Positions 21,275-38,133 of a DNA stretch of 64,000 nt are shown here, piece after piece. Location: IMG/VR virus record IMGVR_UViG_3300044631_000905, positions 23,629 through 87,628 of that record; one strand, written 5' to 3'. The position numbers and the translations under genes were made by a program. Below the pieces are notes generated by a model. That model was not told where the DNA came from, made no database searches, and was given only the letters and a program-made list of their open reading frames with translations. Origin of the DNA: a virus. Numbering within the stretch: the first letter of the stretch is position 1; the number at the start of each line of letters is the position of its first letter.

Positions 21275-22652
21275 ACGTATCGAAGAAACTATCTTGCGTA
21301 ATCTTCTCTTCAACGAGGAGTATTACCGCAAGGTAGTTCCCTTTCTAAAAGCAGATTATTTCAACGAATATCATGAACGCATCTTATTTGAAGAGGTTGC
21401 TGACTTCGCCAGTAAGTATGACAAAGTACCTACTCAAGAAGTTCTCTCAATCAACCTCCAATCTAGAAACGATCTTACAGAAGACACATTCCAGAGTTCG
21501 TTATCTACCCTCAAGTCCCTTGGAGACGAGTGGGTTGATTTCAACTGGCTCCTCGATGCCACAGAAAAGTGGTGTCAAGACAGAGCAATCTATCTCGCTC
21601 TCATGCGGTCCATCAAGATCGCAGATGGAGGTGATAAAAAACTATCAAAGGATGCGATCCCCAGTATCTTACAAGAGGCCCTGGCAGTATCGTTTGACGA
21701 ACACATAGGACACGACTATATTGAACAAGCAGAAGACCGCTATGATTTCTACCACCGCAAAGAAGAAAAGATCCCGTTTGACCTTGATAAATTTAACTTC
21801 ATTACGAAAGGTGGTCTCCCTAACAAAACTCTCAACATCGCTCTTGCTGGTACGGGCGTCGGGAAGTCTCTATTCATGTGCCATGTGGCTGCTGCCGCCC
21901 TCACTCAGAACTACAACGTTCTCTACATTACATGTGAAATGGCAGAGGAGAAAATTGCTGAGCGAATTGACGCAAACCTATTGAATGTAAATGTCAAAGA
22001 TATTGCTGAACTGCCTGAAGTTCTCTTTACTTCTAAGGTACAAGAGATCGCTAGAAAAACTAGAGGCAAACTTATCATCAAAGAGTACCCAACAGCGTCT
22101 GCTCACGTCGGACACTTCAAGGCATTACTCTCAGATCTTTCCTTGAAAAAAGATTTCAAACCTGATATAATCTTTGTGGATTATCTAAACATTTGTGCGA
22201 GCGCGAGGTATAAGGGTGCGATTGTTAATTCTTACACGTATGTCAAAGCGATTGCTGAAGAGCTGCGCGGTCTTGCTGTGGAACATAATGTACCAATTGT
22301 CTCTGCTACTCAAACTACTCGTAGTGGTTACGGTAATAGTGACCCTGACCTTACCGATACTTCTGAGTCTTTTGGTCTTCCTGCCACTGCTGACTTTATG
22401 TTTGCCCTTATCTCTACTGAGGAGCTTGAACAACAAGGTCGCCTCATGGTCAAACAACTTAAAAACCGATACAACGACCCAACTGCCTCTAGAAAATTCA
22501 TGGTGGGAATTGACAGAGCGAAGATGAAGCTGTATGATGTAGCAGACGATGCTTCCGCTATCAGCATTGATAGTGAAGACCCTGGCGAAGAGTTCGCCCA
22601 ATTTGCCCAAACCCAAAACCGTTTATCTAAATTTGCTGAGTGGAATGTATGA
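21264..22652 (+). CDS. gp41: gp41 replicative DNA helicase
   Basis: A 462-residue DnaB-type helicase (T4 gp41 has 475). N-terminal helical domain, then RecA-like domain with Walker A G-T-G-V-G-K-S near 196-202 and Walker B I-I-F-V-D-Y-L near 298-304. ATG 21264 is chosen; the frame extends 30 bases into uvsX. It unwinds the fork and works with the gp61 primase, encoded 9 kb downstream. Confidence 0.95.
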
Positions 22653-23053
22653 CTATTGATTTTGCCCGTTATGAAAAGTTTGTGGATGCTGTTACTTCAG
22701 ACGCTTCTACAGACTTTGTTGCCCTTTCTGATCGTCTCGTTGAGCTGGATCGTAAGGGTGCCAATATTGAACGACTGCTTACTGCTGGCGTCGGTATTAA
22801 TGCTGAAGGTGGTGAGTTTCTTGAGATCATTAAGAAAATGATTTTCCAGGGCAAACCTTTCAACGAAGATAACCGAGAGCATATGATTATTGAACTTGGT
22901 GATCTCCTGTGGTATGTTGCTCAAGCAACTCAAGCACTTGGAGTTTCTTTTGAAGAGGTGCTCGAACGAAATGTTAAGAAGCTTGAAAAGCGATATCCTG
23001 GTGGTCAGTTTGATATCTACTATAGTGAAAACCGAGAAGAGGGTGACCTCTGA
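22649..23053 (+). CDS. mazG: MazG-like nucleotide pyrophosphohydrolase
   Basis: A 134-residue all-alpha NTP pyrophosphatase. The metal-binding pattern is E-G-G-E-F-L-E-I-I-K-K (about 52-62) followed by E-L-G-D-L-L-W-Y (about 82-89) and N-x-x-K-L-x-x-R-Y-P. Phage MazG has been linked to (p)ppGpp or dGTP/dCTP turnover; the in vivo substrate is unsettled. It overlaps gp41 by 4 bases and is followed by a terminator that holds a late promoter. Confidence 0.85.
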   Translation: MTIDFARYEKFVDAVTSDASTDFVALSDRLVELDRKGANIERLLTAGVGINAEGGEFLEIIKKMIFQGKPFNEDNREHMIIELGDLLWYVAQATQALGVSFEEVLERNVKKLEKRYPGGQFDIYYSENREEGDL

Positions 23054-23058
23054 TTATC

Positions 23059-23092
23059 AACCTCCCTCTAAATACTAGCAGGGAGGTTTTTT
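23059..23092 (+). terminator. Terminator hairpin with late promoter in its loop
   Basis: Stem AACCTCCCT (23059-23067) with AGGGAGGTT (23080-23088), 12-base loop, then T run to 23092. The loop contains the late box CTAAATA (23068-23074). The 3' arm carries the Shine-Dalgarno GGAGG (23082-23086) of the next gene, 9 bases before its ATG. A late transcript starting about 6 bases after the box would lack the 5' arm, so neither termination nor SD masking would occur. Confidence 0.8.
23068..23074 (+). promoter_or_regulatory. Late promoter box CTAAATA
   Basis: Late box in the terminator loop, 22 bases before the ATG of the nuclease-like gene. Confidence 0.65.
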
Positions 23093-23095
23093 CTT

Positions 23096-24595
23096 ATGAC
23101 TAAACAATTAGATTTATCTGGATTTGGTGCTGAATATAAAAAAGCAATTCGTGATATTATGGATACTTTGGGAGATGAAAATTTCTCTTTCTATAATTTT
23201 GACGTAACAAAAATTGCCGACCCTACAGGCAGATCAAAAATTTTCTTTGCTCTTAAAGTAATTGTTCCGAGAGCAAAGAGAACAAAAGCAGCATCTATGA
23301 TCGCGCAAAATGTTGCTAGTAAGGGTTATAGTGCTGTTGATACCAAAGGAACTGGCAACCAATTAGATATTGCTGTTGGCAGTAAAACTTTAAGAATTGA
23401 TATTAAACCAGAAGGTGGTGGATCAGGAGGAGGAGCTGCTGAAACAGCAAGAAATGAAGCGGCACAATGTCTTTATGCTGCCCTTGCTTTCAATGTATAC
23501 AGAGGAGAAATAGATGAAGATCATCCCATTTCTTTGAGTGATTTTGAGAAAGCATCAAGAACAATTGATGTTGATGTGCCTTTTGAGCAATTGCTCCCAG
23601 ATGAATTATCAAGAGAATGGCAAATATCTTCCATCAGAGGAGCAAACAAATTGTGGCAAACCTTTCATAATTCTGGTAAGAATTATATTTTTTGTAGAGG
23701 TGGTGGACCAGACGATAAAGAAATTAAAAAAGCATATCAACGGGCTAGAAGAAGCATGATGAAAGATCCCAATGTTAGGGTAATCTTTTCTTCCGAAGAT
23801 AAATGGAATCCAGCAGATATCTGGATGGTATCATCTACATTCAATCCCAGTGATTTGGATAAGCATAAAACTGTTGACACAATAAACGAATTTATAAAAG
23901 AAAAATATGAACAAAGAGAACTAATTGGTGTTTCTCTGAAAAAAATAAAAGGGCCAGCAAAACTAAAAGTTTTGAACTATGATCCAAATGATAAGATGAA
24001 AGAACTGGAGGATGTTAAGTGGGGACAATATTGGGTAAAGTTCAAAGATACTAGATTAGTTGGTGGTGAAGATGCTTTCCCGATGGATGTCTATCTTTAT
24101 TGGAAAAAAGGTGGCGGAGACGCAGATAGATTTCAATCAAGAAATTTTGGTGGGGCATCATCTCCTTCTTGGCAGATAGAAAAGAAAGGAGCATCTGCGG
24201 CGCAGGGTCGTTGTGGTGGTGGAAGTATTGTTGAAATTTTAAAATCTCTCGATGTATCTTATACTGGTATTACAACTGGTTGGAACAATAGAACATTTTG
24301 GGCTGATTGTAAACCAACAAATAAATCCAAGAAGGATCGTATTAATGATGAACTAGTTGAATTACTTGGTAAATATTGTGGCACAAATACAAAAACAGGA
24401 TATCCTGGAGATGTACAAGCAAGAGCTGAAGTTGCTAATCAAACTCAATCTTACAGATATAGTAAATTGATGGGTCTTCGGTTATTGGATTGTATTTTAA
24501 CTTCTGGAAAAGCAGATGAAATTATGAAAGCACTATATTGCTATGCTGGATCTCAAACTGACAAATCATCAGTTCATGTAAAACTTATGGACTGA
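23096..24595 (+). CDS. Large nuclease-like phage protein, 499 aa
   Basis: I cannot name this protein. Two stretches look like PD-(D/E)xK nuclease cores: L-D-I-A-V-G ... I-D-I-K-P-E (about 100-117), followed by a Gly-rich loop, and D-K-W-N-P-A-D-I-W (about 240-248) followed by L-I-G-V-S-L-K-K (about 279-286). The second pattern recurs in uncharacterised phage proteins. A role in DNA cleavage or as a virion-packaged enzyme is inference. It is controlled by a late promoter inside a terminator and ends in a short hairpin at 24597. Confidence 0.55.
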   Translation: MTKQLDLSGFGAEYKKAIRDIMDTLGDENFSFYNFDVTKIADPTGRSKIFFALKVIVPRAKRTKAASMIAQNVASKGYSAVDTKGTGNQLDIAVGSKTLRIDIKPEGGGSGGGAAETARNEAAQCLYAALAFNVYRGEIDEDHPISLSDFEKASRTIDVDVPFEQLLPDELSREWQISSIRGANKLWQTFHNSGKNYIFCRGGGPDDKEIKKAYQRARRSMMKDPNVRVIFSSEDKWNPADIWMVSSTFNPSDLDKHKTVDTINEFIKEKYEQRELIGVSLKKIKGPAKLKVLNYDPNDKMKELEDVKWGQYWVKFKDTRLVGGEDAFPMDVYLYWKKGGGDADRFQSRNFGGASSPSWQIEKKGASAAQGRCGGGSIVEILKSLDVSYTGITTGWNNRTFWADCKPTNKSKKDRINDELVELLGKYCGTNTKTGYPGDVQARAEVANQTQSYRYSKLMGLRLLDCILTSGKADEIMKALYCYAGSQTDKSSVHVKLMD

Positions 24596-24596
24596 T

Positions 24597-24616
24597 GGAC
24601 AGTTTTGGAACTGTCC
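24597..24616 (+). terminator. Perfect hairpin after the nuclease-like gene
   Basis: GGACAGTT and AACTGTCC pair perfectly around TTGG. There is no T run, so it may be an mRNA 3' end or a weak terminator. A TATTAT box (24647-24652) follows, just before the next gene, without a clear -35. Confidence 0.5.
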
Positions 24617-24658
24617 TGTGCTTCCTCCTAACCAACCAAAATTGTGTATTATAGATAG

Positions 24659-25864
24659 ATGGCAAACATCAAGCAACTCAAGCACTTAGAACACCTTGAA
24701 GACGAGATGCTCAACTATGGGGTTGAGGGTTGTGAGGCAGCTGTATCTTTCCTTAAGGAATTGAGAAAGATGTTAGGACAGCAAGAGAGCACTGGGTTTA
24801 TGCAGACCAAATGGGATGGAGCTCCTTCTGTTGTGTGTGGTGTGGATCCTTTATCTGGAGTATTTTTTGTTGGTACTAAATCAGTATTTAATAAAACTGA
24901 ACCAAAACTGTGCGCTACAGAAAAAGCAGTTGATTCTTATTATGAAGGTGATCTCGCAGAGAAACTGAAATACTCTTTACGTTATTTCAGTAAGTTGGGC
25001 ATTAAAGGTGTCATCCAAGGTGACTTACTTTTTACGGATTCTACTAGGCACACGGAGACGGTAGATGGAGAACAACTCTATACATTTAGACCAAACACTA
25101 TTACTTATGGCATCCCTACTGACCACGATATTGGTAAAGAAGTTGGTAGAGCAAAAATTGGTGTAGTATTTCATACTCACTACACTGGAGATTCGCTCGC
25201 AGAAATGCAAGCACGAGCTGGTGCTCCTATCAATACGTTCAACAAAGTTCCTGAAGTAGCGGTGATTGCCAATGATACTCCAATGAATAGAGTGGGGTTT
25301 TCTAGGTCAGAAATGGCGCGGTTTGATAGGTATGTTGCTAAGATTGAACGTATGTCTCAGTTATGTGGAGACTTCTTGGACGATCTTGTTAGTAACTTTG
25401 GAACTACAGGAGATGCTAAGTTTCACATCTCTTCTTATCTAAAACAGTTCTTCAACAGTGAGATCAAGAATGCTCGTAGTATCAGTAACATTGATGAGAC
25501 TATCAACGAGTTAGTAAATTTCTATCATGATAAGATGAGTAAAGAACTTGCCAAGATCAAGACAGTTGATAACTTGACAAAGAAACGTAATCTTGTTTAC
25601 AAGAGTGAGAACTATCTTCTTGATAATGTTTATAAATTCAAGACCATGATTGCTCTATACAAAGAACTACAAGCAGTCAAACAAATGGTTATAGATAAGT
25701 TAGACCATCTTGAAGAGTTTAGAACTTTTGTTCAGACCGAGAAAGGATATAAGGTCACAACTCCTGAAGGATATGTTCTTCATAAAGACGGTAGTATGAT
25801 TAAGTTTGTCAATCGTCTGGAGTTTGCTTACAACAACTTCACTCTACAAAAGCAATGGCGATAG
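24659..25864 (+). CDS. Ligase-fold nucleotidyltransferase-like protein
   Basis: A 401-residue protein. K51-W-D-G54 (T-K-W-D-G-A-P) matches ligase motif I, where the Lys would be adenylylated. G-D-L-L-F at 121-125 resembles motif III, P-E-G-Y-V-L at 369-374 motif IV, and I-K-F at 381-383 motif V. A helical stretch of about 150 residues separates the N-terminal motifs from IV and V, much longer than usual. It may be an RNA or DNA ligase-like enzyme; activity is inference. It overlaps the next gene, a nucleotidyl (adenylyl) transferase, by 10 bases. Confidence 0.6.
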   Translation: MANIKQLKHLEHLEDEMLNYGVEGCEAAVSFLKELRKMLGQQESTGFMQTKWDGAPSVVCGVDPLSGVFFVGTKSVFNKTEPKLCATEKAVDSYYEGDLAEKLKYSLRYFSKLGIKGVIQGDLLFTDSTRHTETVDGEQLYTFRPNTITYGIPTDHDIGKEVGRAKIGVVFHTHYTGDSLAEMQARAGAPINTFNKVPEVAVIANDTPMNRVGFSRSEMARFDRYVAKIERMSQLCGDFLDDLVSNFGTTGDAKFHISSYLKQFFNSEIKNARSISNIDETINELVNFYHDKMSKELAKIKTVDNLTKKRNLVYKSENYLLDNVYKFKTMIALYKELQAVKQMVIDKLDHLEEFRTFVQTEKGYKVTTPEGYVLHKDGSMIKFVNRLEFAYNNFTLQKQWR

Positions 25865-26415
25865 GAAAGACTTGCTACTTTACGTTTGGTAGGTTCCAAC
25901 CACCAACGACTGGACACAAAGAAAACTTTGATGGTGTAAAGCAAGCAGCTGGCCAGCATGACTATCGCATCTACATCTCACAAACTGTAGATACGAAAGG
26001 CACTAATCCTTTGCCACCAGATGTGAAGCTTAGTTACATGAACAAGATGTTTCCAGAACATAAAGGTAAAATACATTCTGGTCCTAAACAACCAGTCGAA
26101 ATTTTACAAGACCTAATGCTAGCAGGATATGATGAAGTGGTATTTCTTGTGGGGTCTGATCGGGTCAGCGCCATGCAATTCCTCCATAAATACAACGGAA
26201 AAGACTTTTCTTTCAGAAACATTGAGATCCAATCTTCTGGAAGTAGAGATGCTGACGGTGATACATTCGCCATCTCAGGGACAAAAATGAGGAGAGCAGC
26301 ATTTGCTGGCGACTTCAAAACATTTCGTTCTGGTATTCCTAGAGCTTTGAACGATAAAGAATGTATGAATTTGATGAACGAAATCAAGAGTAGGTTACCA
26401 AAAACATTTAAATGA
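25855..26415 (+). CDS. NMNAT/cytidylyltransferase-fold nucleotidyltransferase
   Basis: A 186-residue protein of the HxGH superfamily. F-G-R-F-Q-P-P-T-T-G-H (about 10-20) carries the nucleotide-binding T-x-G-H, F-L-V-G-S-D-R-V is in the middle, and I-S-G-T-K-M-R (about 141-147) matches the I-S-x-T-x-x-R phosphate-binding motif. Nicotinamide mononucleotide adenylyltransferase is the nearest named function. It overlaps the ligase-like gene, hinting at a joint pathway such as NAD supply or nucleotide transfer. Confidence 0.7.
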   Translation: MAIGKTCYFTFGRFQPPTTGHKENFDGVKQAAGQHDYRIYISQTVDTKGTNPLPPDVKLSYMNKMFPEHKGKIHSGPKQPVEILQDLMLAGYDEVVFLVGSDRVSAMQFLHKYNGKDFSFRNIEIQSSGSRDADGDTFAISGTKMRRAAFAGDFKTFRSGIPRALNDKECMNLMNEIKSRLPKTFK

Positions 26416-26639
26416 AAGACTTTAAGAAACTACGTGAAGAAGCCCTGCGTCAACAGCAAAGACAGCAGGAAGTTTTCAAAGAAGGTGATACTGTAATGTC
26501 TTCACGCAACGGTGAGAAAGGAACCATTCATCGTGTTGGTGGAAACTATGCCATCATCATTACAGAAGATGGTGAGATGTTCCGAGAGTGGATCAAGAAT
26601 ATCAGGACTATAAATAATACGAGAAGAACTTTACCATAA
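26412..26639 (+). CDS. Small KOW/SH3-like protein, 75 aa
   Basis: A charged N-terminal helix rich in Gln and Arg (residues 5-22), then F-K-E-G-D-T-V-M-S-S-R-N-G-E-K-G-T-I and G-G-N-Y-A-I-I-I, a short SH3-like barrel resembling KOW domains. It overlaps the preceding gene by 4 bases. Function unknown. Confidence 0.55.
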   Translation: MKDFKKLREEALRQQQRQQEVFKEGDTVMSSRNGEKGTIHRVGGNYAIIITEDGEMFREWIKNIRTINNTRRTLP

Positions 26640-26641
26640 AG

Positions 26642-27385
26642 ATGAAGTACCAGAAACCAATTAATTCAATTCAAAACAGCGACGAGTTTTCATCTAATTT
26701 GATGGAAGCATACGGCAGGTGGATGGGAGGTGATTGCTTCCAGAATACTCAACCAGTAGATCTTCACCTTGTTGAAGCATTTGATGGTATGGATCCTCAA
26801 TCACACGGCGCAGAGATTGAGCACACTACCACCAAGAAAAAGACTGCCAAGAAAGAAAGTCCAAAGGCACAGTTGGCAACCAAGGAAGAGTATGAGGTTC
26901 TAGAAACTGAAGAGTACGAAATTGATGGTGTCATCTATGTTCTTGAGAAAGTCAAGATGGATGGCAAAGATGACAACGGTTTCAAAACTTGCTGGAAAGG
27001 ATATAAGAAGCAAGGTACTAAGGTAAAGGGTGATAAGGAAGTCAATAACTGCGTCAAGGCTGGTCTTGAGTATGAAGGTGAGGAAGACCTTGCTGAGGTT
27101 GCCCCTCCTGGTGCTAAGTCGGAGCGTATGGTCAAGCACATCAAGAAATCATATTCTAAAGATGGTGAGCTAACCGATAAAGAAAAGTCAATTGCTTATG
27201 CTACTGCTTGGAAGCATAAGAACAAGATGAAGAAGGAAGAAGTTGAACTTTCTGAGAAGATGGATCCTGTCGGCAAGGAAGATGGAGATATTGATAACGA
27301 CGGTGATAAGGATAAGTCAGATAAGTACCTACATGCTCGTCGTAAGAAGATCAGCAAAATCATGGCGATGAAGAAAAAGTCATGA
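26642..27385 (+). CDS. Putative virion protein with Ca-loop-like motif
   Basis: A 247-residue protein rich in Lys and Glu. A central block G-F-K-T-C-W-K-G-Y ... N-N-C-V-K (about 118-145) holds two cysteines, and near the C-terminus D-G-D-I-D-N-D-G-D-K-D-K-S-D resembles a dockerin or EF-hand calcium loop, followed by a basic tail. Not identified. The late-gene neighbourhood suggests a structural or scaffold role. Confidence 0.5.
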   Translation: MKYQKPINSIQNSDEFSSNLMEAYGRWMGGDCFQNTQPVDLHLVEAFDGMDPQSHGAEIEHTTTKKKTAKKESPKAQLATKEEYEVLETEEYEIDGVIYVLEKVKMDGKDDNGFKTCWKGYKKQGTKVKGDKEVNNCVKAGLEYEGEEDLAEVAPPGAKSERMVKHIKKSYSKDGELTDKEKSIAYATAWKHKNKMKKEEVELSEKMDPVGKEDGDIDNDGDKDKSDKYLHARRKKISKIMAMKKKS

Positions 27386-27774
27386 AATCCTTTAGACAGT
27401 TCTGCGAAGAGTGCGGTTGCGAAAAGAAAGAACGTAAAGGTAAGAAGAAAGCAACTGTTGAAGTGATGCCAACTGTTAAGGATGGTGTCAAGGGTATGAC
27501 CACAAAAGTTACCAACGAAAACTTTGCTGGTAACTATCCTGGACCACTCTATGCTCCTCACCCAGATATCAAAAGAGAAAACTATGATAAGGGTGAGTAT
27601 GATTATGAAGGAGATATGGCAAAGACCCAACTAAAAGGTATTGCTAGAAATGCTCAAGAACTTCATGATATGCTACAACCTGCTGACAATCTACCAGAGT
27701 GGGTACAATCCAAGATAACCCTTGCGGCGGATTACATCCAGACGGCAAACGATTACATGAAGAGTAAGGGTTGA
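27382..27774 (+). CDS. Conserved cyanophage protein, possible virion component
   Basis: A 130-residue protein. The C-terminal half M-A-K-T-Q-L-K-G-I-A-R-N-A-Q-E-L ... W-V-Q-S-K-I-T-L-A-A-D-Y-I is a helical motif I recognise as recurring in T4-like cyanophage structural proteins, usually at their C-terminus. The N-terminus has C-E-E-C-G-C-E and a basic run. Function unknown. It overlaps the preceding gene by 4 bases. Confidence 0.5.
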   Translation: MKSFRQFCEECGCEKKERKGKKKATVEVMPTVKDGVKGMTTKVTNENFAGNYPGPLYAPHPDIKRENYDKGEYDYEGDMAKTQLKGIARNAQELHDMLQPADNLPEWVQSKITLAADYIQTANDYMKSKG

Positions 27775-27798
27775 TAAATAGCTCTGTTCCATTCAGAG
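27773..27798 (+). promoter_or_regulatory. Late promoter running into a hairpin
   Basis: Late box GATAAATA (27773-27780) is followed directly by a CTCTG/CAGAG hairpin (27782-27798) with a 7-base loop. The expected start site lies near the loop, so the late transcript would not form the full hairpin. Confidence 0.55.
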
Positions 27799-27805
27799 TA
27801 GAACC

Positions 27806-27979
27806 ATGGGCGCAGTAGTAGCGGTTGTAAAACCAATTCTTCTTCAGATTGCTACACATCCAGCAGTAAAGAACCTTGTTCTTGAACTTCTTGGTAAGTA
27901 TGTAAAATCAACGGACAACAGTATTGATGATGTAGTTTATGAATTAGTTAAAGATAAACTTTTTAAACCACAGGCATGA
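27806..27979 (+). CDS. Small hydrophobic protein, 57 aa
   Basis: It starts M-G-A-V-V-A-V-V-K-P-I-L-L-Q-I-A and continues as an amphipathic helix ending K-L-F-K-P-Q-A. It has its own late promoter 26 bases upstream and overlaps the next small gene by 4 bases (ATGA). It may be membrane associated; function unknown. Confidence 0.6.
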   Translation: MGAVVAVVKPILLQIATHPAVKNLVLELLGKYVKSTDNSIDDVVYELVKDKLFKPQA

Positions 27980-28140
27980 TTACCTGCTTAGTAACTAACT
28001 GGGGTGTAACCATAGTCCTAGGTCTTCTGCTAACTGCTTCTGAGTGGTTGGCAAAAACAAAAAGATTTGAGGAAAATGGATTGCTAGATTTAATTACAAA
28101 TTTCTTAAAAATTCTATTGCGTAAGGGAGACCATAAATAG
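27976..28140 (+). CDS. Small single-span membrane protein, 54 aa
   Basis: Residues about 2-22 are hydrophobic (C-L-V-T-N-W-G-V-T-I-V-L-G-L-L-L), followed by a charged cytoplasmic-type tail. It is coupled to the preceding gene. A holin-related role is possible for this pair, given late expression, but nothing proves it. Its stop codon lies inside the next terminator loop. Confidence 0.6.
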   Translation: MITCLVTNWGVTIVLGLLLTASEWLAKTKRFEENGLLDLITNFLKILLRKGDHK

Positions 28141-28154
28141 GGTCTCCCTTTTTT
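28125..28154 (+). terminator. Terminator with late box in its loop
   Basis: Stem GGGAGACC (28125-28132) with GGTCTCCC (28141-28148), then six T. The 8-base loop is the late-type box ATAAATA plus G. A second, perfect late box TATAAATA follows at 28154-28161. Confidence 0.85.
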
Positions 28155-28161
28155 ATAAATA
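28154..28161 (+). promoter_or_regulatory. Late promoter TATAAATA
   Basis: Exact T4 late consensus, 36 bases before the ATG of the Ig-like virion protein. It overlaps the last T of the terminator. Confidence 0.85.
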
Positions 28162-28196
28162 AATTTTAGAAATCGGTAAATATTTGGAGTGTATCC

Positions 28197-29111
28197 ATGA
28201 CCCTGTATAGTCGCGCTGAAACAAACGCACAAAGCTTGACAGTCCTAAACACCACAGAGAAGAACTCTGTTGATAAGTATGACTGGGATAATACCCTGAT
28301 TGTTGATGGTGACAGCACAGTTGCTGGTGCTCAGGGTTATGCTACTGCTGCTCGCAGAACTGTTTATATTGATGACGTAGAAGCAACCCTTGCTGAAAAC
28401 AGAGAGCGTGGTTTAACTGCTCCTGGTTGGTGGGAGTATATGACTTATGTTGATTCTGATGGTAAGACCCGCCACAAAGCACAGCACCTAGTAGCATTCA
28501 AAGATGCTCCTGTTAATACTGCTGACCTTGATGACGTTGTTGCTGCTGACGTAGCATCTGCTATCACTATCTCGGTACAACCTGCTAACCAGTCAACACA
28601 AACACCTGCTGGTGGAATTCTTACTGTTACTCGCGCAGGAACAGCAGCATCTGGTACAGCTTCATACACGGGAGTAACTGGTACGGCTTCTGGTTCTGGA
28701 ACTAACGCTACATTTACTGTAGCAAGAGCTGGTGGAGTTTACACTGTAACAGTAACCGCCGCTGGTTCTGGTTATGCTGCTTCTGAAACTATCACTATTC
28801 TTGGTAGTGCTCTGGGTGGTGTTGATACAACCAACGATCTTACAATTACAGTTGCTACTGTTGCTACTGCTGCTGCTACATTCTCGGTTACTGCTGCTGC
28901 TTCAACTGGTTCTCTTACTTACCAATGGCAGCGTAAGACAAGCAGCACCGCTCGCTGGACAAATGTTTCTGGTGCTACGAGTTCTTCACTCGCTCTCACT
29001 GGACTTACCACAGCAGCTAATGGTTATGAGTATCGTGTCAAACTTACATCATCTGCTGGTGCCGAAGAAGTTATCTCTGACGCAGCAACACTAACAGTAA
29101 CTGCGGCATGA
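28197..29111 (+). CDS. Ig-like virion decoration protein
   Basis: A 304-residue protein. Residues 1-110 form a cyanophage-type N-terminal domain (W-W-E-Y-M-T-Y-V-D-S-D-G-K-T-R-H-K-A). Two Ala/Thr/Gly-rich beta domains follow; the last (about 220-304) has the bacterial Ig pattern Y-Q-W-Q-R ... W-T-N-V-S-G-A-T-S-S-S-L ... Y-R-V-K-L. Probably an outer capsid or tail decoration that contacts the cell surface, like Hoc. Strong late promoter upstream supports a virion role. Confidence 0.7.
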   Translation: MTLYSRAETNAQSLTVLNTTEKNSVDKYDWDNTLIVDGDSTVAGAQGYATAARRTVYIDDVEATLAENRERGLTAPGWWEYMTYVDSDGKTRHKAQHLVAFKDAPVNTADLDDVVAADVASAITISVQPANQSTQTPAGGILTVTRAGTAASGTASYTGVTGTASGSGTNATFTVARAGGVYTVTVTAAGSGYAASETITILGSALGGVDTTNDLTITVATVATAAATFSVTAAASTGSLTYQWQRKTSSTARWTNVSGATSSSLALTGLTTAANGYEYRVKLTSSAGAEEVISDAATLTVTAA

Positions 29112-29116
29112 TCTAA

Positions 29117-29473
29117 ATGAACATTAGTGAATTGAACCATGAGAATTGGTTATTCTTTGCCATTCAAAACTACAACAACCCGTCGTCAGTAACTTATAGT
29201 GATTTTGAAGAAGACTTAAAACGCTTCAAATATATTAAAAGATTACTCAAGAGATACGAAACGACGGGTGAATTGAAAACCCATCTCATTCTAAATCATG
29301 TGATTGTACTTTATAATGTGTTTGATGACGCAGCAACACCGCTGCTTTTTTATAAAACTGAAGCAACTTACTGGCCTCAAATCAAGGCATTCATGTTGTT
29401 TCTAAATAGATTACCATCTTCTCTTACTAAGGATTTTGACCAGGAATGTCTGAAAAGTCTGAACCTAATATGA
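29117..29473 (+). CDS. Conserved cyanophage protein, 118 aa
   Basis: An all-helical protein beginning M-N-I-S-E-L-N-H-E-N-W-L-F-F-A-I-Q-N-Y, which I have seen as a conserved hypothetical in many cyanomyoviruses. Middle L-I-L-N-H-V-I-V-L-Y-N-V-F-D. Function unknown. It overlaps the next gene by 28 bases. Confidence 0.6.
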   Translation: MNISELNHENWLFFAIQNYNNPSSVTYSDFEEDLKRFKYIKRLLKRYETTGELKTHLILNHVIVLYNVFDDAATPLLFYKTEATYWPQIKAFMLFLNRLPSSLTKDFDQECLKSLNLI

Positions 29474-30153
29474 ATGAAATGATGAATGTTGCTGGATCTG
29501 GTGAAGGTCTAGCACTACCACCCGCTTTTGTTATGGTAAATCCAAGACAAAATCGTAAGTATAAAAAATCTGAGAAAGTAGATGGTCGCACCAAAGGTGC
29601 TCGTGCTCTTTTCAATCGTATCCAACGCAGAAAAATGAAAGAAGAATTAGAAACACAAATTGATGAGGCGCTTGTGTCCGATACTGAAAGGGCGCAGAAG
29701 CAAATCCAGCAACAGAAAAAACTCAATCGCTCAAAAGATCTTCAGAAGAAGCGCAAGGAAGCGAAAGAGAAGATGATGAACAAGACAAGAGAGATGGACA
29801 CTCTCATGAAAGCTCGTCTCTCTGACTTCAAAAAGAAGGCATCAGAGCAGCAGAAAAAAGTTCAAAAAAACTCAGTTGAATTTGAAGGTAATGTTATGAT
29901 GGAAGGACAAGATGTAATCCAAGTTGCTCTCGATGTAGCAACTTCTGAACTCAACCCAAGCGGCGAAGCATCATTCGCAAAGATCCAATTTGCTGACGGC
30001 GGTGTTCAGAACCTAGACAATTTCTCAGCAAAGCGCATCGCTGCTTGTTATGCTCAACTTGATGATGAGCACAAGCAACAGTTCCAGTATCTGCTAAACA
30101 AAGATGCGTCATCTTATCAGGCAGCACTGAACTTCGCAGTTCGTAACGTCTGA
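29446..30153 (+). CDS. Coiled-coil putative structural protein, 235 aa
   Basis: The N-terminal 40 residues are disordered; residues about 55-145 are a highly charged coiled coil with many Lys, Glu and Gln. The C-terminal domain (150-235) is globular, with I-Q-V-A-L-D-V-A-T and a helical end. Length and position suggest a prohead-core or virion protein, which is inference. ATG 29446 is the longest start; ATG 29470 is an alternative. Confidence 0.5.
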   Translation: MSEKSEPNMNEMMNVAGSGEGLALPPAFVMVNPRQNRKYKKSEKVDGRTKGARALFNRIQRRKMKEELETQIDEALVSDTERAQKQIQQQKKLNRSKDLQKKRKEAKEKMMNKTREMDTLMKARLSDFKKKASEQQKKVQKNSVEFEGNVMMEGQDVIQVALDVATSELNPSGEASFAKIQFADGGVQNLDNFSAKRIAACYAQLDDEHKQQFQYLLNKDASSYQAALNFAVRNV

Positions 30154-30164
30154 TAGAGGAAGTC

Positions 30165-30560
30165 ATGTTCGGATTTGGCAGAGATCTAGAAATATTAGAA
30201 GCAAAATTTCAAATATATGAAGATCTCTCCAAAGAGATGCTTGACAAACTTGAAAGAGCAGTAGATAAAATTAGTGAGAGCAACCAGAACGTTGCTCTTA
30301 TCCTAGAGCGTCATGAGAATAGACTAGAACAGAATGACCGAAATGATAATGCGATCATGGAACTAATCAGAGATATCAAAGATCGTATTGAGAAAGTAGA
30401 AAACAGAGTAAATGATCTTGCCACGTTTAGGTGGATCTCTGTTGGTATTGGCACCGCAGCAGTCTTTATTATTGGTTCTGCCACGTTCTTCGGAAACATC
30501 TTGACAGTCGGGAACAACGGTGCTACCATAGGTGGAGGTACGCCAGCACAAACTAAGTGA
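30165..30560 (+). CDS. Coiled-coil membrane protein (XhlA-like layout)
   Basis: A 131-residue protein. Residues 15-85 form a heptad coiled coil; residues about 92-112 are a single transmembrane segment (I-S-V-G-I-G-T-A-A-V-F-I-I-G-S-A). This layout matches phage haemolysin XhlA-type membrane anchors linked to lysis, or bacterial coiled-coil membrane proteins in general. It overlaps gp61 by 4 bases (GTGA). Confidence 0.6.
   Translation: MFGFGRDLEILEAKFQIYEDLSKEMLDKLERAVDKISESNQNVALILERHENRLEQNDRNDNAIMELIRDIKDRIEKVENRVNDLATFRWISVGIGTAAVFIIGSATFFGNILTVGNNGATIGGGTPAQTK
30501..30529 (+). promoter_or_regulatory. Possible sigma-70 promoter for gp61
   Basis: TTGACA (30501-30506), 17 bases, TACCAT (30524-30529), inside the coding end of the preceding gene and 28 bases before gp61. 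Confidence 0.35.
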
Positions 30561-31558
30561 GTTCTTTTATTGATGTAAAATATATCCAACTAGTGTCTTC
30601 GCGCCTAGTTCTCTTTGCCCGCAAGAAGGCAGACCTGTATAACTTCAGGTGCCCATATTGTGGAGATAGTCAGAAGCGTAGGAACAAAGCACGAGGATAT
30701 CTCTTCAAGGTAAAGAATGACTTTGTGTTTAAGTGTCACAACTGTGGCATGGGTAGAACCCTGGCGAACTTCATCAAGGACCAAGATACTTTCCTTCATG
30801 ATCAATATGTCATGGAGAAATTTAAAGATGGTAAAACTGGCAAAGGGACTACAGTTCCAAACCCAGTCTTCAATTTTCAGGAACCAAAGTTTTTCAGCAA
30901 ACCTGAAAATTCCATTGGTCTTAAAAAAGTATCAGACCTAAATATTTCTCACCCAGCGAGAGAATATCTTGAGCAACGAGGCATCAAAGATCTAGATTAC
31001 TTTTATTACTGTCCAAAGTTCAAAGAATGGACAAACAACCAAAAGAAAATCTTTGATAATCTTAAACAAGATAGTCCCAGGATTATCATTCCATTCAAAG
31101 ACAAAGAAGGCAACCTTTTCGGATACCAAGGCAGATCGCTAGCCCCAAAGGCAAAGATTAGATACATTACGATCATGCTGGACGAGGAACAACCCAAGAT
31201 CTTTGGATTAGACAGAATTAATACAACCGAACCAGTTTATATTGTAGAGGGACCATTTGATGCGACGTTCATTAAAAACTCTGTTGCTATGGCTGGGTCC
31301 GATGCTGATATTAGGACGTTTGGTTGGAGCAATTATATTTGGATTTTTGATAATGAACCACGTAACAGAGAGATCGTCGCCAGGATCTCCAAAGTCATTG
31401 ACCGAGGAGACAAGGTAGTATTGTGGCCAAGTAAAATCAAAGAGAAAGATATTAACGACATGTTCCTTGCTGGACATGATGTTCAAAGTCTGGTAGAATG
31501 TAATGTCTACAGTGGTTTAGAAGCAAAACTTAAATTTAACGATTGGAAGAAAGTATGA
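30557..31558 (+). CDS. gp61: gp61 DNA primase
   Basis: A 333-residue primase (T4 gp61 has 342). Zinc-binding domain C-P-Y-C-G-D-S ... K-C-H-N-C-G (about 32-62) and a TOPRIM domain with Y-I-V-E-G-P-F-D-A-T (about 227-236) plus I-W-I-F-D-N-E near 261. It makes RNA primers with gp41. Translation starts at GTG overlapping the stop of the membrane protein. The final four bases overlap nrdA. Confidence 0.93.
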   Translation: MSSFIDVKYIQLVSSRLVLFARKKADLYNFRCPYCGDSQKRRNKARGYLFKVKNDFVFKCHNCGMGRTLANFIKDQDTFLHDQYVMEKFKDGKTGKGTTVPNPVFNFQEPKFFSKPENSIGLKKVSDLNISHPAREYLEQRGIKDLDYFYYCPKFKEWTNNQKKIFDNLKQDSPRIIIPFKDKEGNLFGYQGRSLAPKAKIRYITIMLDEEQPKIFGLDRINTTEPVYIVEGPFDATFIKNSVAMAGSDADIRTFGWSNYIWIFDNEPRNREIVARISKVIDRGDKVVLWPSKIKEKDINDMFLAGHDVQSLVECNVYSGLEAKLKFNDWKKV

Positions 31559-33867
31559 CAAACGGACATGGTATCAAAGTTCGCAAGCGCAGCGGGTCTG
31601 TGGAACCCCTCAACCTCGATAAGATCCACAAGATGGTGGAGGAGGCTTGCGAGGGTCTAGGGAGCGGTGTGAGCGCCTCTCAGGTGGAGATGAACTCGGG
31701 TCTCCAGTTCTTTGACGGGATCGAGACGAAGGACATCCAGGAGATCCTGGTGCGCTCTGCGAGCGACCTTATCAGCCTGGAGAACCCCAACTATCAATTC
31801 GTTGCTGCTCGCCTGCTGCTGTTCGGACTTCGCAAGCAGGTGTTTGGATCTGATTGGGTGAATGGGCATCCTACTGTTCTGGACCATGCTTTTAAGTGTG
31901 CCACGAACGGTGTCTATGACAAAGAAGTTCTTGGTAAATATACTAAGGAAGAGTGGGACAAGATTGACAGCTTTATTGATCATGACCGTGATTTTCTATT
32001 CACTTATGCTGGTCTTCGTCAGATCGTTGATAAGTACCTAGTACAAGATAGGAGCACAGGTGCGGTTTATGAAACCCCACAATACATGTACATGATGATT
32101 GCTGCGACCTTGTTCCAAAACTATACAAAGGATCGTCTAGAATATGTCAGGAGATACTACAACGCAATCTCAAAGCACAAAATCAACATCCCAACGCCAA
32201 TCATGGCAGGAGTGCGAACACCACTTAGACAATTTGCTAGTTGTGTTCTTGTTGATGTTGATGACACCCTCGATAGTATCTTTAGCTCTGATATGGCTAT
32301 TGGCAGATATGTCTCACAGAGGGCGGGTATCGGCATCAACGCAGGTCGCATCCGTGGCATCAACAGTAAAATCAGAGGGGGAGAAGTTACGCATACTGGC
32401 GTTATACCGTTTCTCAAAAAGTTTGAAGCGACTGTCAGATGTTGTACGCAAAATGGCATACGAGGTGGATCCGCGACAGTACATTTCCCAATCTGGCACA
32501 GAGAAATAGAAGATATCCTAGTACTAAAGAATAATAAAGGAACTGAAGATAACCGTGTTCGTAAGTTAGACTACTCTATTCAAATTAGCAAACTGTTCTA
32601 TGAACGTTTCATCCAAGACGCAGAAATCTCACTCTTCTCACCACACGACGTTCCTGGTCTGTATGATGCTTTTGGGACTGATAGATTTGACGATTTGTAT
32701 GTGGATTACGAACGAGATACAACTGTTCCACGAAAAACTATTGGAGCTCAAGAACTCATTCTGGACCTCCTGAAGGAGCGAGCAGAGACTGGTCGTGTTT
32801 ATATCATGAATATTGATCATTGTAACTCTCACTCTTCCTTCCTTGACAAAGTAAATATGTCAAACCTCTGTCAGGAGATCACACTTCCTACAGACCCTAT
32901 CCAACATATTGATGGTGAAGGTGAGATTGCCCTGTGTATTCTTTCTGCTATCAACGTGGGTAAGATACATAAACTGGATGACCTTGAAGAACTTTGTGAT
33001 CTTGCTGTTCGTGGATTGGAAGAACTGATTGATTATCAGCAATATCCAGTAAAGGCAGCAAGACTTTCAACTCTCAATCGTCGTTCTTTGGGTATCGGTT
33101 ATATCGGTCTAGCACATTATCTCGCAAAGCAAGGAGAACACTATGATGATCCACGAGCCTGGCAACTCGTCCATGACCTTACTGAAGCTTTCCAGTACTA
33201 TCTCCTCAAGTCTTCCAACGCAATCGCTAAGGAGAAGGGCGCCTGTGGATACTTCAATCGAACCAAGTATTCTCAAGGCATCTTGCCAATTGATACCTAC
33301 AAGCGAGATGTTGATGAACTCTGCGACCCCACGTTGAAATATGATTGGGAAACTCTACGTTCCGAGATACAAACATTTGGACTACGACATTCAACGTTGT
33401 CCGCACAAATGCCATCGGAAAGCAGTTCCGTTGTGTCAAACGCAACCAACGGAATTGAACCCCCTAGAGATTACTTGTCCGTTAAGAAGTCGAAGAAGGG
33501 TCCTCTCAAGCAAGTTGTTCCCCAGTATCAAACTCTTAAGAACAACTATACGCTTCTTTGGGATATGCCTGACAATACTGGTTATATCAATATTGTTGCT
33601 GTTATGCAAAAGTTCTTTGATCAAGCGATATCTGGAAACTGGTCGTATAATCCAGAAAATTATGCCGATAATGAAGTTCCTGTGTCGGTGATGGCTCAAG
33701 ACTTCCTCAATACTTACAAGTACGGATGGAAGACATCTTACTATCAGAATACATACGATATCAAACAAGACGAACCAATTACTCAAGAACAAAAGAAAAG
33801 CATAGAAGATTTACTCAACGATATTTTCAGCACGGAGGAAGAAGACTGTGACAGTTGTAAGATTTAG
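31555..33867 (+). CDS. nrdA: Ribonucleotide reductase class Ia, large subunit
   Basis: A 770-residue NrdA. It has the active-site cysteine regions F-A-S-C-V-L-V-D-V (about 225), N-L-C-Q-E-I (about 438) and A-L-C-I-L-S (about 461), G-Y-I-G-L-A-H-Y-L, and the redox C-terminal C-D-S-C-K-I that accepts electrons from glutaredoxin. An N-terminal ATP-cone-like region (1-90) starts K-V-R-K-R-S-G. The reductase makes dNTPs from host NDPs. A glutaredoxin gene lies 7 kb downstream. The real start is taken as ATG 31555. Confidence 0.96.
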   Translation: MTNGHGIKVRKRSGSVEPLNLDKIHKMVEEACEGLGSGVSASQVEMNSGLQFFDGIETKDIQEILVRSASDLISLENPNYQFVAARLLLFGLRKQVFGSDWVNGHPTVLDHAFKCATNGVYDKEVLGKYTKEEWDKIDSFIDHDRDFLFTYAGLRQIVDKYLVQDRSTGAVYETPQYMYMMIAATLFQNYTKDRLEYVRRYYNAISKHKINIPTPIMAGVRTPLRQFASCVLVDVDDTLDSIFSSDMAIGRYVSQRAGIGINAGRIRGINSKIRGGEVTHTGVIPFLKKFEATVRCCTQNGIRGGSATVHFPIWHREIEDILVLKNNKGTEDNRVRKLDYSIQISKLFYERFIQDAEISLFSPHDVPGLYDAFGTDRFDDLYVDYERDTTVPRKTIGAQELILDLLKERAETGRVYIMNIDHCNSHSSFLDKVNMSNLCQEITLPTDPIQHIDGEGEIALCILSAINVGKIHKLDDLEELCDLAVRGLEELIDYQQYPVKAARLSTLNRRSLGIGYIGLAHYLAKQGEHYDDPRAWQLVHDLTEAFQYYLLKSSNAIAKEKGACGYFNRTKYSQGILPIDTYKRDVDELCDPTLKYDWETLRSEIQTFGLRHSTLSAQMPSESSSVVSNATNGIEPPRDYLSVKKSKKGPLKQVVPQYQTLKNNYTLLWDMPDNTGYINIVAVMQKFFDQAISGNWSYNPENYADNEVPVSVMAQDFLNTYKYGWKTSYYQNTYDIKQDEPITQEQKKSIEDLLNDIFSTEEEDCDSCKI

Positions 33868-33898
33868 AACTAACGATAATCACATGAACGTAGAAGGA

Positions 33899-35029
33899 AT
33901 GACAGTATTCAATACTAACAAAGTAGATAATACTAAACAAAAAATGTTCTTTGGACCCCCTCTTGGGGTCCAACGTTACGATAAGTTTAAGTATCCTGTG
34001 TTTGATAAACTGACACAGCAACAACTTGGATACTTTTGGAGACCTGAAGAGGTCTCCCTTCAGAAAGATCGTGCTGATTATCAAACTCTAAACGCAGCAC
34101 AAAAGCACATCTTTACTTCTAATCTGAAGTATCAAATCCTTCTCGATAGTGTTCAGGGTCGTGGTCCTGGTATGGCTTTCATGCCATACTGTTCCCTTCC
34201 TGAACTAGAAGGTGCTATGAATATCTGGCAGACTATGGAGATGGTCCATAGTCGTTCTTATACACATATTATAAAAAATGTGTATGCTGATCCGTCTGAG
34301 GTGTTTGATACAATCCTTGAGGATGACAAGATCCTTCAACGTGCTCGTTCTGTAACTCGTTCATATGATGAATTCCTCCAAGCAGCAACAGAATGGGGAG
34401 CAGGAAACCAGTGGCGGCATGAATTGGAAGGAACACCAGCAGCAAAAGAAACATTGTATGACCTCAAAAGAAAACTATATCGAGCGGTTGCTAACGTATA
34501 TATCCTCGAAGGAATTCGGTTCTACGTATCGTTTGCCTGCTCTTTCGCTTTTGGTGAACTTAAACTCTTGGAAGGAAGTGCCAAAATCATCGGACTTATC
34601 GCAAGAGACGAAAGCCAACACATGACAATCACTCAGAACATTCTAAACAAATGGAAGGAGGGTGATGATCCTGACATGGTGGAAATTGCCAAGGAAGAAG
34701 AAGAGAACGTCTATCAGATGTTCCGTGATTGTGTTGATGAAGAGAAACTCTGGGCAGAATATCTGTTCAAGGATGGATCTATCATCGGTCTAAATGATAA
34801 ACTACTTGCTAAGTATGTTGAATGGACTGCTAATCGTCGTCTCAAGTCTATTGGTCTCAAGGCAATCTTTGATACTCCTATTACAAACAATCCTCTGCCA
34901 TGGACAGAACATTGGTTGTCTTCTAAGGGAATGCAAGTTGCTCCTCAAGAGACGGAGGTTGAGAGTTATTTAATTGGGAGCATTAAACAAGATGTTAAGA
35001 AAGATACTTTCGCTGGTTTTAAACTGTGA
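33899..35029 (+). CDS. nrdB: Ribonucleotide reductase class Ia, small subunit
   Basis: A 376-residue NrdB. The start M-T-V-F-N-T-N-K-V-D mirrors T4 NrdB (M-S-T-V-F-N-T-N-P-V-D), so ATG 33899 is preferred over GTG 33848 or ATG 33884. Diiron ligands and the radical Tyr sit in E-M-V-H-S-R-S-Y-T-H-I and in R-D-E-S-Q-H. It supplies the tyrosyl radical to NrdA. Confidence 0.95.
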   Translation: MTVFNTNKVDNTKQKMFFGPPLGVQRYDKFKYPVFDKLTQQQLGYFWRPEEVSLQKDRADYQTLNAAQKHIFTSNLKYQILLDSVQGRGPGMAFMPYCSLPELEGAMNIWQTMEMVHSRSYTHIIKNVYADPSEVFDTILEDDKILQRARSVTRSYDEFLQAATEWGAGNQWRHELEGTPAAKETLYDLKRKLYRAVANVYILEGIRFYVSFACSFAFGELKLLEGSAKIIGLIARDESQHMTITQNILNKWKEGDDPDMVEIAKEEEENVYQMFRDCVDEEKLWAEYLFKDGSIIGLNDKLLAKYVEWTANRRLKSIGLKAIFDTPITNNPLPWTEHWLSSKGMQVAPQETEVESYLIGSIKQDVKKDTFAGFKL

Positions 35030-35148
35030 GAAAAAGAGAGATAGAAAAACTGGAGAAACTTCTAAAGGAGGGTCCGAAGAGTCTATCTCAAGCGTGGATA
35101 CTCGCCGCCCTCAAGCGAAAATTCCAGACCCCTGGTACAACTGAATAG
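35026..35148 (+). CDS. Possible 40-aa protein after nrdB
   Basis: GTG 35026 overlaps the nrdB stop (GTGA), as also seen at gp61. The peptide is highly basic: R-K-R-E-I-E-K-L-E-K-L-L-K-E-G ... A-L-K-R-K-F-Q. It ends inside the late promoter. Short, so uncertain. Confidence 0.4.
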   Translation: MRKREIEKLEKLLKEGPKSLSQAWILAALKRKFQTPGTTE

Positions 35149-35176
35149 ATAAATACCTCCGTGATGGAGGTTTTTT
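35148..35176 (+). promoter_or_regulatory. Late promoter fused to an SD-masking terminator
   Basis: Late box GATAAATA (35148-35155) is followed at once by CCTCC (35156-35160), GTGAT and GGAGG (35166-35170), then six T. Upstream transcripts would fold and stop here. A late transcript should begin near the loop and keep GGAGG free as the Shine-Dalgarno, 9 bases before ATG 35180. Confidence 0.8.
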
Positions 35177-35179
35177 ATT

Positions 35180-35518
35180 ATGAAGGTACAGTCAGCAAAA
35201 GCAAAAGGTCGTCGTCTCCAACAGTGGGTCAGAGAAAAACTGATTGAGATGCTTGAAGTTCATCCAGAAGATATTGAAAGTAGATCTATGGGTGCTGGTG
35301 GTGAGGATCTCATCATGGCTCGTGCTGCCAGATCAAAATTTCCACATAGTATTGAGTGTAAAAATGTGGAGAAGCTAAATATCTGGGATGCCTATGAGCA
35401 GGCATCGGCCAACTGCGGTGACTATGAACCTCTCGTTGTTATTAAAAAGAATGGTAAAAAACCATTGGCAGTTATAGACGCAGAGTATTTCATTAGTTTA
35501 TTCGGAGACAGAAAATGA
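35180..35518 (+). CDS. PD-(D/E)xK nuclease
   Basis: A 112-residue protein with A-K-G-R-R-L-Q-Q-W-V (about 8-17), G-A-G-G-E-D-L-I-M (about 37-45) and I-E-C-K-N-V (about 57-62), the D-(x)n-E-x-K order of Holliday-junction-resolvase and VRR-type nucleases. It could debranch DNA before packaging, the role of T4 endonuclease VII, which is not seen in this window. Late expression fits that. It overlaps the next gene by 4 bases. Confidence 0.7.
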   Translation: MKVQSAKAKGRRLQQWVREKLIEMLEVHPEDIESRSMGAGGEDLIMARAARSKFPHSIECKNVEKLNIWDAYEQASANCGDYEPLVVIKKNGKKPLAVIDAEYFISLFGDRK

Positions 35519-36186
35519 CGTTAGATCTTCATAACTTTTTCAAGTATTATGATGATGGTAATTCAAACCATGTGGCAGCAGTTCAGTGGTTAGAAGATAA
35601 CCTACCAGAACAGTTCATGGATGACGCAGAGACTGATTGGATTGGTATTTTTAGAACAAAACCACCCACTCCAGCAGTACTCGATGTTCCATACTTTAAC
35701 CAAGTAGATAACTACAGAGATGCACATAGAACTTGTAACAGTTCATCGTGCGCTATGTGTCTTGCTTTCCTCAAGCCAGGCAGTATCAAGGGCGATGATG
35801 AATATGTCAAGAAAGTGTTTGCTATTGGTGACACAACTGACCATGCCGTACAGACGAAAGTTCTCGCAGGTTATGGTATTAAGTCACACTTTAGCTATAA
35901 TCTTTCTTTTGCTGACATTGATAAGAGCCTTGATAGAGGCAAACCCGTTGTTATTGGTATTCTCCACAGGGGTTCTTTATCTGCTCCTACTGGTGGGCAC
36001 ATGTGTGTAGTGATTGGTAAGACACCAGATGGCAAGGGATATTATGTTAATGATCCATATGGTTCTCTCAACGATAACTATACTGGTCCAGTAACAAATG
36101 GTAAGAAGACCATTTACACCAAAGCAGTTCTCAAGCATCGCTGGTGCCCAGGTGGCAACGATGGTTGGGGTCGTATTTTTGACTGA
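35515..36186 (+). CDS. C39-like cysteine peptidase with lysin targeting domain
   Basis: A 223-residue protein. Residues 3-40 (D-L-H-N-F-F-K-Y-Y ... A-V-Q-W-L-E-D-N-L-P) are shared almost word for word with the lysozyme gene next door. Residues 58-223 look like a papain-fold C39_2 peptidase: P-Y-F-N-Q-V-D-N, N-S-S-S-C-A-M with the likely catalytic Cys, G-G-H-M-C-V-V-I with the His, and V-N-D-P-Y-G. Probably a wall peptidase or amidase acting at lysis. Confidence 0.65.
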   Translation: MTLDLHNFFKYYDDGNSNHVAAVQWLEDNLPEQFMDDAETDWIGIFRTKPPTPAVLDVPYFNQVDNYRDAHRTCNSSSCAMCLAFLKPGSIKGDDEYVKKVFAIGDTTDHAVQTKVLAGYGIKSHFSYNLSFADIDKSLDRGKPVVIGILHRGSLSAPTGGHMCVVIGKTPDGKGYYVNDPYGSLNDNYTGPVTNGKKTIYTKAVLKHRWCPGGNDGWGRIFD

Positions 36187-37683: not shown

Positions 37684-37722
37684 GAATAAATAGGGGGGTG
37701 CTGTCACACCCCCCCCCCCCCC
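37684..37722 (+). promoter_or_regulatory. Late box, GC hairpin and a 14-C tract
   Basis: GAATAAATA (37684-37692) is followed by GGGGGGTG (37693-37700) pairing with CACCCCCC (37707-37714). Fourteen C in a row (37709-37722) run right up to ATG 37723, leaving no Shine-Dalgarno. Confidence 0.6.
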
Positions 37723-38133
37723 ATGCCTCAGTTTAATTTCCAAATCGGAAAGAAAAAAACTAGCATGAAAGATATGATGATAATATCTGGAGTGCTTCTT
37801 TTTGTTGTATCTGGAATAGCAGCATTCACAAATCTGCCAAAAGAAAAAGCGTGGTGTGCTGTAGATCAATTGACAAGACCACTAAATATTGATATACTTG
37901 AAGATGTAAAACTTGAAATTGAAGAGATCCGTGCTTGCCGTGCCGAAAAAGCAGTTGGTGATGCTATAGAAAAATTTAAGAAAGAGACAGGATGGAAACC
38001 TGTGGAGATCTTACCTCCAAGATATTCCGAGAAACCAATAGACACTACGGTGTGCTATACTGATGATTGTAAATCATTAGGTGGTGAAATGAGACTTTGT
38101 GCTCCATGGCTTGACGACTGCCTAAAGCAGTAG
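37723..38133 (+). CDS. Membrane-anchored protein with Cys-rich tail
   Basis: A 136-residue protein. Residues about 17-36 are a transmembrane segment (M-M-I-I-S-G-V-L-L-F-V-V-S-G-I-A-A-F). The outer part has six Cys, with C-Y-T-D-D-C near 110 and C-A-P-W-L-D-D-C at the end, suggesting disulfides. A lysis or envelope role is possible (spanin-like layout) but unproven. Its last codons carry the -35 of the tRNA promoter. Confidence 0.55.
   Translation: MPQFNFQIGKKKTSMKDMMIISGVLLFVVSGIAAFTNLPKEKAWCAVDQLTRPLNIDILEDVKLEIEEIRACRAEKAVGDAIEKFKKETGWKPVEILPPRYSEKPIDTTVCYTDDCKSLGGEMRLCAPWLDDCLKQ

Follow-up and report, generated by a model that had tools for sequence, protein, structure and literature searches.

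The window analysed here is the whole stretch of 64,000 nucleotides, taken from an 87.6-kb virus record, and all positions are counted from its first base. Gene order and sequence similarity place this virus of marine cyanobacteria with the T4-like cyanophages (Kyanoviridae), and its closest database relatives are the Synechococcus phages ACG-2014i and ACG-2014e, with 84% identity over the region. Downstream of the gp41 helicase gene and mazG there is a gene position, here called the slot, which is preceded by a compact hairpin leader and bordered on its right by a gene for a DUF6267 protein. A second copy of the leader lies further downstream in front of a resolvase gene. The features are as follows.

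22649-23053, + strand: mazG, after the gp41 helicase gene, upstream neighbour of the first hairpin on the same strand
23059-23067, + strand: 5' arm AACCTCCCT of the first hairpin, outside the predicted late RNA
23068-23074, + strand: late promoter box CTAAATA, within the loop; TAAATA is invariant in the aligned leaders
23080-23088, + strand: 3' arm AGGGAGGTT, with the Shine-Dalgarno sequence (SD) GGGAGG at 23081-23086 and the predicted late 5' end at 23080
23087-23092, + strand: run of six T's, intrinsic-terminator-like; the ATG of the next gene is at 23096
23096-24595, + strand: slot gene behind the first leader, 499 aa, phrog_1462, with an invariant E121..D241..S280xK282, a PD-(D/E)XK-like motif
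24659-25864, + strand: DUF6267 gene downstream of the slot gene, the slot's right border
35150-35182, + strand: second copy in another geometry, with TAAATA at 35150-35155, CCTCC at 35156-35160, GGAGG at 35166-35170 and ATG at 35180
35180-35518, + strand: RusA-like Holliday junction resolvase family protein, 112 aa (PHROG_244, E 4e-21)

The order between the end of mazG and the ATG of the slot gene is AACCTCCCT, CTAAATA, CTAGC, AGGGAGGTT and the T-run, and the hairpin spans 29 bases. Folding of the 40-nt hairpin segment gave -16.5 kcal/mol (z -5.4), a stability equalled in none of 200 shuffles, and the stable G+C-rich stem followed by T's has the sequence form of an intrinsic terminator. While CTAAATA alone occurs in the window at the chance level (12 seen vs 11.6 expected), the arrangement CTCCC..CTAAATA..GGGAG occurs once in the window and never in 100 shuffles of it. 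CTAAATA fits the TATAAATA-like box of T4-type late promoters (gp55/gp33/gp45), which reads NATAAATA in cyanophages (PMC2984593, PMC1524935). The first-pass annotation had described a hairpin with a late promoter in its loop, a ribosome site in its 3' arm and a T run, and sequence and folding both bear this out. A search of Rfam with window positions 22000-36000 gave no match.

Late promoters occupy positions -13 to -6 in T4, and CTAAATA starts at -12 in phage Aeh1 (PMC1524935). This spacing puts the predicted late +1 at 23080, where the 3' arm begins, and within the 5' end of about 23080-23082 proposed earlier. The promoter is thus placed, judging from sequence and spacing, so that a late RNA would lack the 5' strand, as in the masked leaders of T4, while longer transcripts have the SD paired in silico. 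For leaders identical to that of the window, the calculated probability that GGAGG is unpaired was about 0.26 in the late RNA vs about 0.00 in the read-through RNA, and over 50 distinct leaders the median for the SD was 0.51 vs about 0. The annotation had GGAGG paired in transcripts from upstream, which agrees with the calculation, and free in the late RNA, which holds only in part: the 5' arm is absent by spacing, and the predicted opening is partial because GGAGG may pair weakly with its own U-run.

The second copy reads TAAATA, CCTCC (-5 to -1), GTGAT, GGAGG, six T's, ATT and ATG. The 5' arm lies here behind the promoter box, and a late RNA with +1 at 35161 would again lose it. We refer to this order as the second geometry and to that of the first hairpin as the loop type.

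Conservation of the leader and its arms

The annotation had treated the element as a single case. We found instead that it occurs twice in the window and is conserved at a variable locus. A scan of IMG/VR for the pattern CTCC-N-TAAATA-N-GGAGGTTTT returned at least 120 stretches, and those among the matches listed lie mostly between gp41-mazG and the DUF6267 gene. Across eleven whole phage genomes and our own record, exactly one CTCC-type copy was counted in six records, while the other six had none, the form being absent genome-wide from Syn9, S-PM2, P-SSM2, P-SSM4, S-SSM7 and T4. As there is one copy or none per record, a cassette repeated through each genome is ruled out, and the variety of genes found behind the leader reflects swapping at one locus. 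The hairpin leader is not universal, since S-PM2 and S-SSM7 have no such hairpin at the mazG-DUF6267 locus and Syn9, P-SSM2 and P-SSM4 lack the CTCC form.

A sample unbiased by the hairpin was obtained by anchoring loci on the downstream DUF6267 protein, which yielded 108 distinct leaders; two of the three anchors came from pattern-found loci, and the returned loci were not picked by hairpin. In 90 of the 108, a late promoter lies no more than 50 nt from the start codon. For the remaining 18, no TAAATA was seen near the chosen ATG, the ORF being cut by the contig, the start misassigned or the box truly absent. Hairpins are present in 83 of the 90 promoter-bearing leaders: 76 are of the loop type with a T-run, four have the second geometry with a T-run, three have the second geometry without one, and the other seven are hairpin-free. 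These assignments come from one thermodynamic fold with fixed rules, and individual cases may be misfiled.

The T-run accompanies the hairpin. In this unbiased set alone it follows 76/76 loop-type hairpins, 4/7 of the second geometry and 0/7 hairpin-free leaders. When all 149 distinct leaders were pooled (130 with a late promoter), a set partly selected by a pattern containing TTTT, at least four T's were found after 115/115 loop-type hairpins, in 4/7 of the second geometry and in 0/8 hairpin-free leaders. Among 50 GGAGG-ATG genes of five cyanophage genomes a TTTT spacer is seen in only three, each of them with a hairpin leader that contains TAAATA. The genome-wide excess of TAAATA in terminator-like loops of cyanophages is modest (0-2 per genome vs 0-6 for the sum of 14 permuted hexamers), and it is therefore conservation at the locus that carries the case. 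Leaders L142, L145 and L352 carry a second-geometry masking hairpin with no T-run, and directly upstream of it a sequence resembling a tRNA 3' end.

The arms vary together. For 46 of 50 distinct leaders, shuffles of the sequence 5' of the promoter matched the observed stability in at most two of 200 trials, and in silico pairing of the SD is found in almost all leaders, including the three that have no T-run and those of the second geometry. The commonest arms, CCTCCC/GGGAGG, say little by their pairing because the SD itself is constrained. Variant arms that change together are CCTCTCCA/TGGAGAGG (leader L140), CCTTCCTC/GAGGAAGG (L409), CCCCCTC/GAGGGGG (L394, L399, L401 and L408) and CCTCTCC/GGAGAGG (L386 and L416). 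In such leaders, pairing between the two native arms is 4-10 kcal/mol more favourable than pairing of that 5' arm with the consensus 3' arm. Because most 3' arms are identical, cross-pairing tested over the whole set of arms is weak and informative for variant arms only.

Genes behind the leaders

Clustering of the 156 slot genes at the DUF6267 loci gave seven groups with no detectable BLAST similarity between them. In 23 pairs of loci the 150 upstream bases are at least 93% identical, yet the slot genes are unrelated; the identity stops 3-8 nt into the ORF, that is, at the start codon, and past the stop codon of the slot gene the pairs are again 64-80% identical. Profile comparison among the three main slot families showed no homology. 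An invariant E..D..SxK pattern is common to three families, and two of these look like restriction endonucleases. The gene swapped in behind the hairpin most often looks like a DNA-cutting enzyme.

In the product of 23096-24595, the residues E121, D241, S280 and K282 are invariant in 27 aligned relatives, with S in place of the canonical D/E. Its structure model has a pLDDT of 85.7, and the top fold matches, which are RsfS/nucleotidyltransferase-like, span residues 6-107 only. The annotation's label of nuclease-like gene is plausible from the invariant residues, and the fold search did not add confirmation; with the motif present and only the N-terminal domain recognised by fold, a nuclease is likely and not proven. 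For the phrog_8438 slot family, the predicted fold matched HinP1I (Z 8.8 over 200 residues) and I-Ssp6803I (Z 6.2), followed by Hjc resolvases and HincII. These scores come from a second look among weak Foldseek matches, Foldseek alone giving none at E<=0.001, and the predicted structure contains a nuclease core fold. The third slot family hit PADLOC REase_II models (E 1.4e-10 and 2.7e-10) and is a predicted type II restriction enzyme. Sequence searches of the PDB gave nothing useful. The neighbouring DUF6267 protein (24659-25864) contains TKWDGAP, by eye like the KxDG lysine motif of nucleotidyltransferases and ligases, which is retained in divergent relatives.

Behind the second copy, the RusA-like protein scored E 0.034 against Pfam PDDEXK_15, below the cut-off. 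A homology-based sample gave 60 distinct resolvase leaders. The promoter is present in 47, of which 44 combine the hairpin with a T-run, their arms occurring in many variants, and the three promoter-bearing leaders without a hairpin also lack a T-run; no TAAATA was seen near the chosen ATG in the remaining 13 (cut ORF, misassigned start or truly absent). A pattern scan for the second geometry returned mainly the RusA-like resolvase (51 loci), then a SegE-like GIY-YIG endonuclease (8 loci; Pfam SegE_GIY-YIG, E 1.6e-51), the gene in the mazG slot (7 loci) and a few others.

TAAATA also lies in the loops of other hairpins. One of them, gggagaccaTAAATAgggtctcccTTTTTT at 28120-28150 of the window, is strong and resembles a terminator; it has TAAATA in its loop and masks no SD. 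The 71-nt stretch there folds with -18.3 kcal/mol (z -3.0), and two further TAAATA boxes come after it within 50 nt. A second conserved terminator with a TAAATA loop, aatcccttcttccTAAATAggtaagaagggatttttt, is found at L207-L216 (ACG-2014i) and L226-L235 (S-RSM4), with the variant aatccctatctgaTAAATAcaggtagggattttt in S-PM2 (L245-L254), and terminators of this type stand shortly upstream of an ORF beginning ATGGC. In other phages, a loop-type leader CTCCTAAG-TAAATA-TGCTTAGGAGG-TTTTTT-ATG stands in front of a gene for heme oxygenase (L052, L064, L072 and L096; Pfam E 7e-21). The sequence CTCCAAC-TAAATA-TATTGGAGG-TTTT-ATG (L017, L020 and L083) precedes a protein that is HNH-endonuclease-like by eye (HIDH..N..N) and has no match in Pfam. 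Long TAAATA-loop hairpins with a T-run, for example CTCCCACCTA-TAAATA-AGTAGGTGGGAGG-TTTT, occur in L062, L067, L080, L090, L092 and L112; in L090, L092 and L112 the ORF that follows codes for a D12 adenine methyltransferase (E 9e-36 with Pfam in the case of L112), and its start codon is too distant for simple masking. At 37687-37730 of the window, TAAATA precedes a G-run that a short spacer separates from a run of 14 C's, an inverted repeat beside a late promoter box.

A candidate stage switch and its alternatives

The element is probably a stage switch that keeps a late gene locked. Transcripts made early and extending through gp41-mazG would form the entire hairpin, and most of them would stop at the T-run. 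RNA that reads through would have its SD paired, leaving the next gene untranslated. After replication, the late RNA polymerase of the phage would initiate from CTAAATA in the loop, and the late mRNA, starting at about 23080 with the 3' arm, would expose the SD in its first seven bases; as this mRNA begins at the 3' arm, it should neither form the hairpin nor terminate there. We infer as the reason for such a lock that a nuclease made early could harm replicating phage DNA, or host DNA that the phage still needs. Comparison between leaders supports, at the level of sequence, the placing of the late promoter in the loop and of the SD in the 3' arm, the T-run, and a predicted late start behind the 5' arm.

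The same architecture could serve masking of translation alone, as in T4, with the T's as a spacer and no working terminator. Masking can indeed stand by itself, as the T-run-less hairpins of L142, L145 and L352 suggest, and the T4 genes e, soc, 49 and I-TevI are masked with no run of four T's. This account is nevertheless unlikely, because at least four T's follow all 115 loop-type and all 44 resolvase hairpins and no hairpin-free leader, and elsewhere in the five cyanophage genomes GGAGG is never followed by a TTTT spacer. Less probable still is simple compaction, in which the terminator of an early operon overlaps a late promoter and the masking of the SD is a by-product. Terminators that have TAAATA in the loop and mask no SD, such as those at 28123-28150 and at the aatcccttcttccTAAATAggtaagaagggatttttt site, fit compaction, whereas the pairing of the SD in nearly every leader, also in those of the second geometry and the three without a T-run, speaks against it. 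We give very little credence to conservation of the leader as DNA, for instance as a border for recombination or a target for a nuclease in the swapping of slot genes, rather than as an RNA control. The upstream identity that ends at the start codon in the 23 locus pairs would suit such a role, and the binding site of T4 I-TevI overlaps its own late promoter (PMC2988022); the compensatory arm changes, however, retain pairing, and the resolvase, one family at all sampled loci, carries the same device.

Beyond the single locus, the stage switch may be part of a more general lock. It is possible, though we hold it only tentatively, that in T4-like cyanophages the composite device (terminator, masked SD and late promoter within about 35 bases) is a general late-lock for nucleases, namely the PD-(D/E)XK resolvase, SegE-like GIY-YIG and restriction-like enzymes, with one copy guarding a swappable slot whose nucleases are directed at co-infecting phages or are spread by homing.

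Comparison with T4 and other known systems

The masking logic is already known from T4, where the leaders of e, soc, 49 and I-TevI are masked early and open late (PMC3014915, PMC2988022), and the stage switch is one of a known kind; the precedent of e and 49 had been cited correctly by the annotation (PMC3014915). Reading these four leaders in the T4 sequence, we found the second geometry in 49, e and I-TevI, the loop geometry in soc, and in no case four consecutive T's behind the stem. The cyanophage form would thus work like the T4 leaders and add an intrinsic terminator.

The closest likeness is T4 gene 49 (endonuclease VII), where TAAATA is directly followed by a CCCTT arm, an AAGGG arm and ATG, and where the gene encodes a Holliday junction resolvase, the kind of product also predicted behind the second copy in the window. 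It differs in having only three T's after the stem, and the cyanophage resolvase is RusA-like, not endonuclease VII. T4 soc shares the TAAATA late promoter within the loop, but its stem hides the start codon, the SD lies in the loop, there is no T-run and the product is a capsid protein. For T4 e, I-TevI and Aeh1 mobE, early RNA masks the ribosome-binding site and late RNA without the 5' strand is translated (PMC3014915, PMC2988022), and the late promoters of Aeh1 are CTAAATA (PMC1524935); unlike the cyanophage slot, these have no fixed leader common to different genes. With intrinsic (rho-independent) terminators the element shares a G+C-rich stem followed by 4-8 T's, and it differs by the promoter in the loop and the SD in the 3' arm.

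The endonucleases segB, I-TevI-III and mobE are named in a T4 review as users of such control, and together with the gene 49 resolvase they make the link between switch and nuclease older than the present finding. Nor is the switch exclusive to nucleases, as T4 e and soc and the heme oxygenase and D12 methyltransferase leaders of other phages indicate. In the literature searched we found no description of the composite element; what is new is that a predicted intrinsic terminator is fused in, and that one kind of leader serves the different genes of a swappable nuclease slot as well as a resolvase gene. If the proposed stage switch is true, the early-mask, late-open control of a few T4 genes would be widespread in abundant marine phages, would also stop transcription and would tend to guard nucleases. 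T4 gene 49 and the cyanophage RusA-like resolvase would then have the same leader design for proteins of different assigned families. The finding also exposes a slot in which sequence-unrelated, mostly restriction-like nucleases would interchange behind one promoter, and makes phage-phage competition through late nucleases directly testable.
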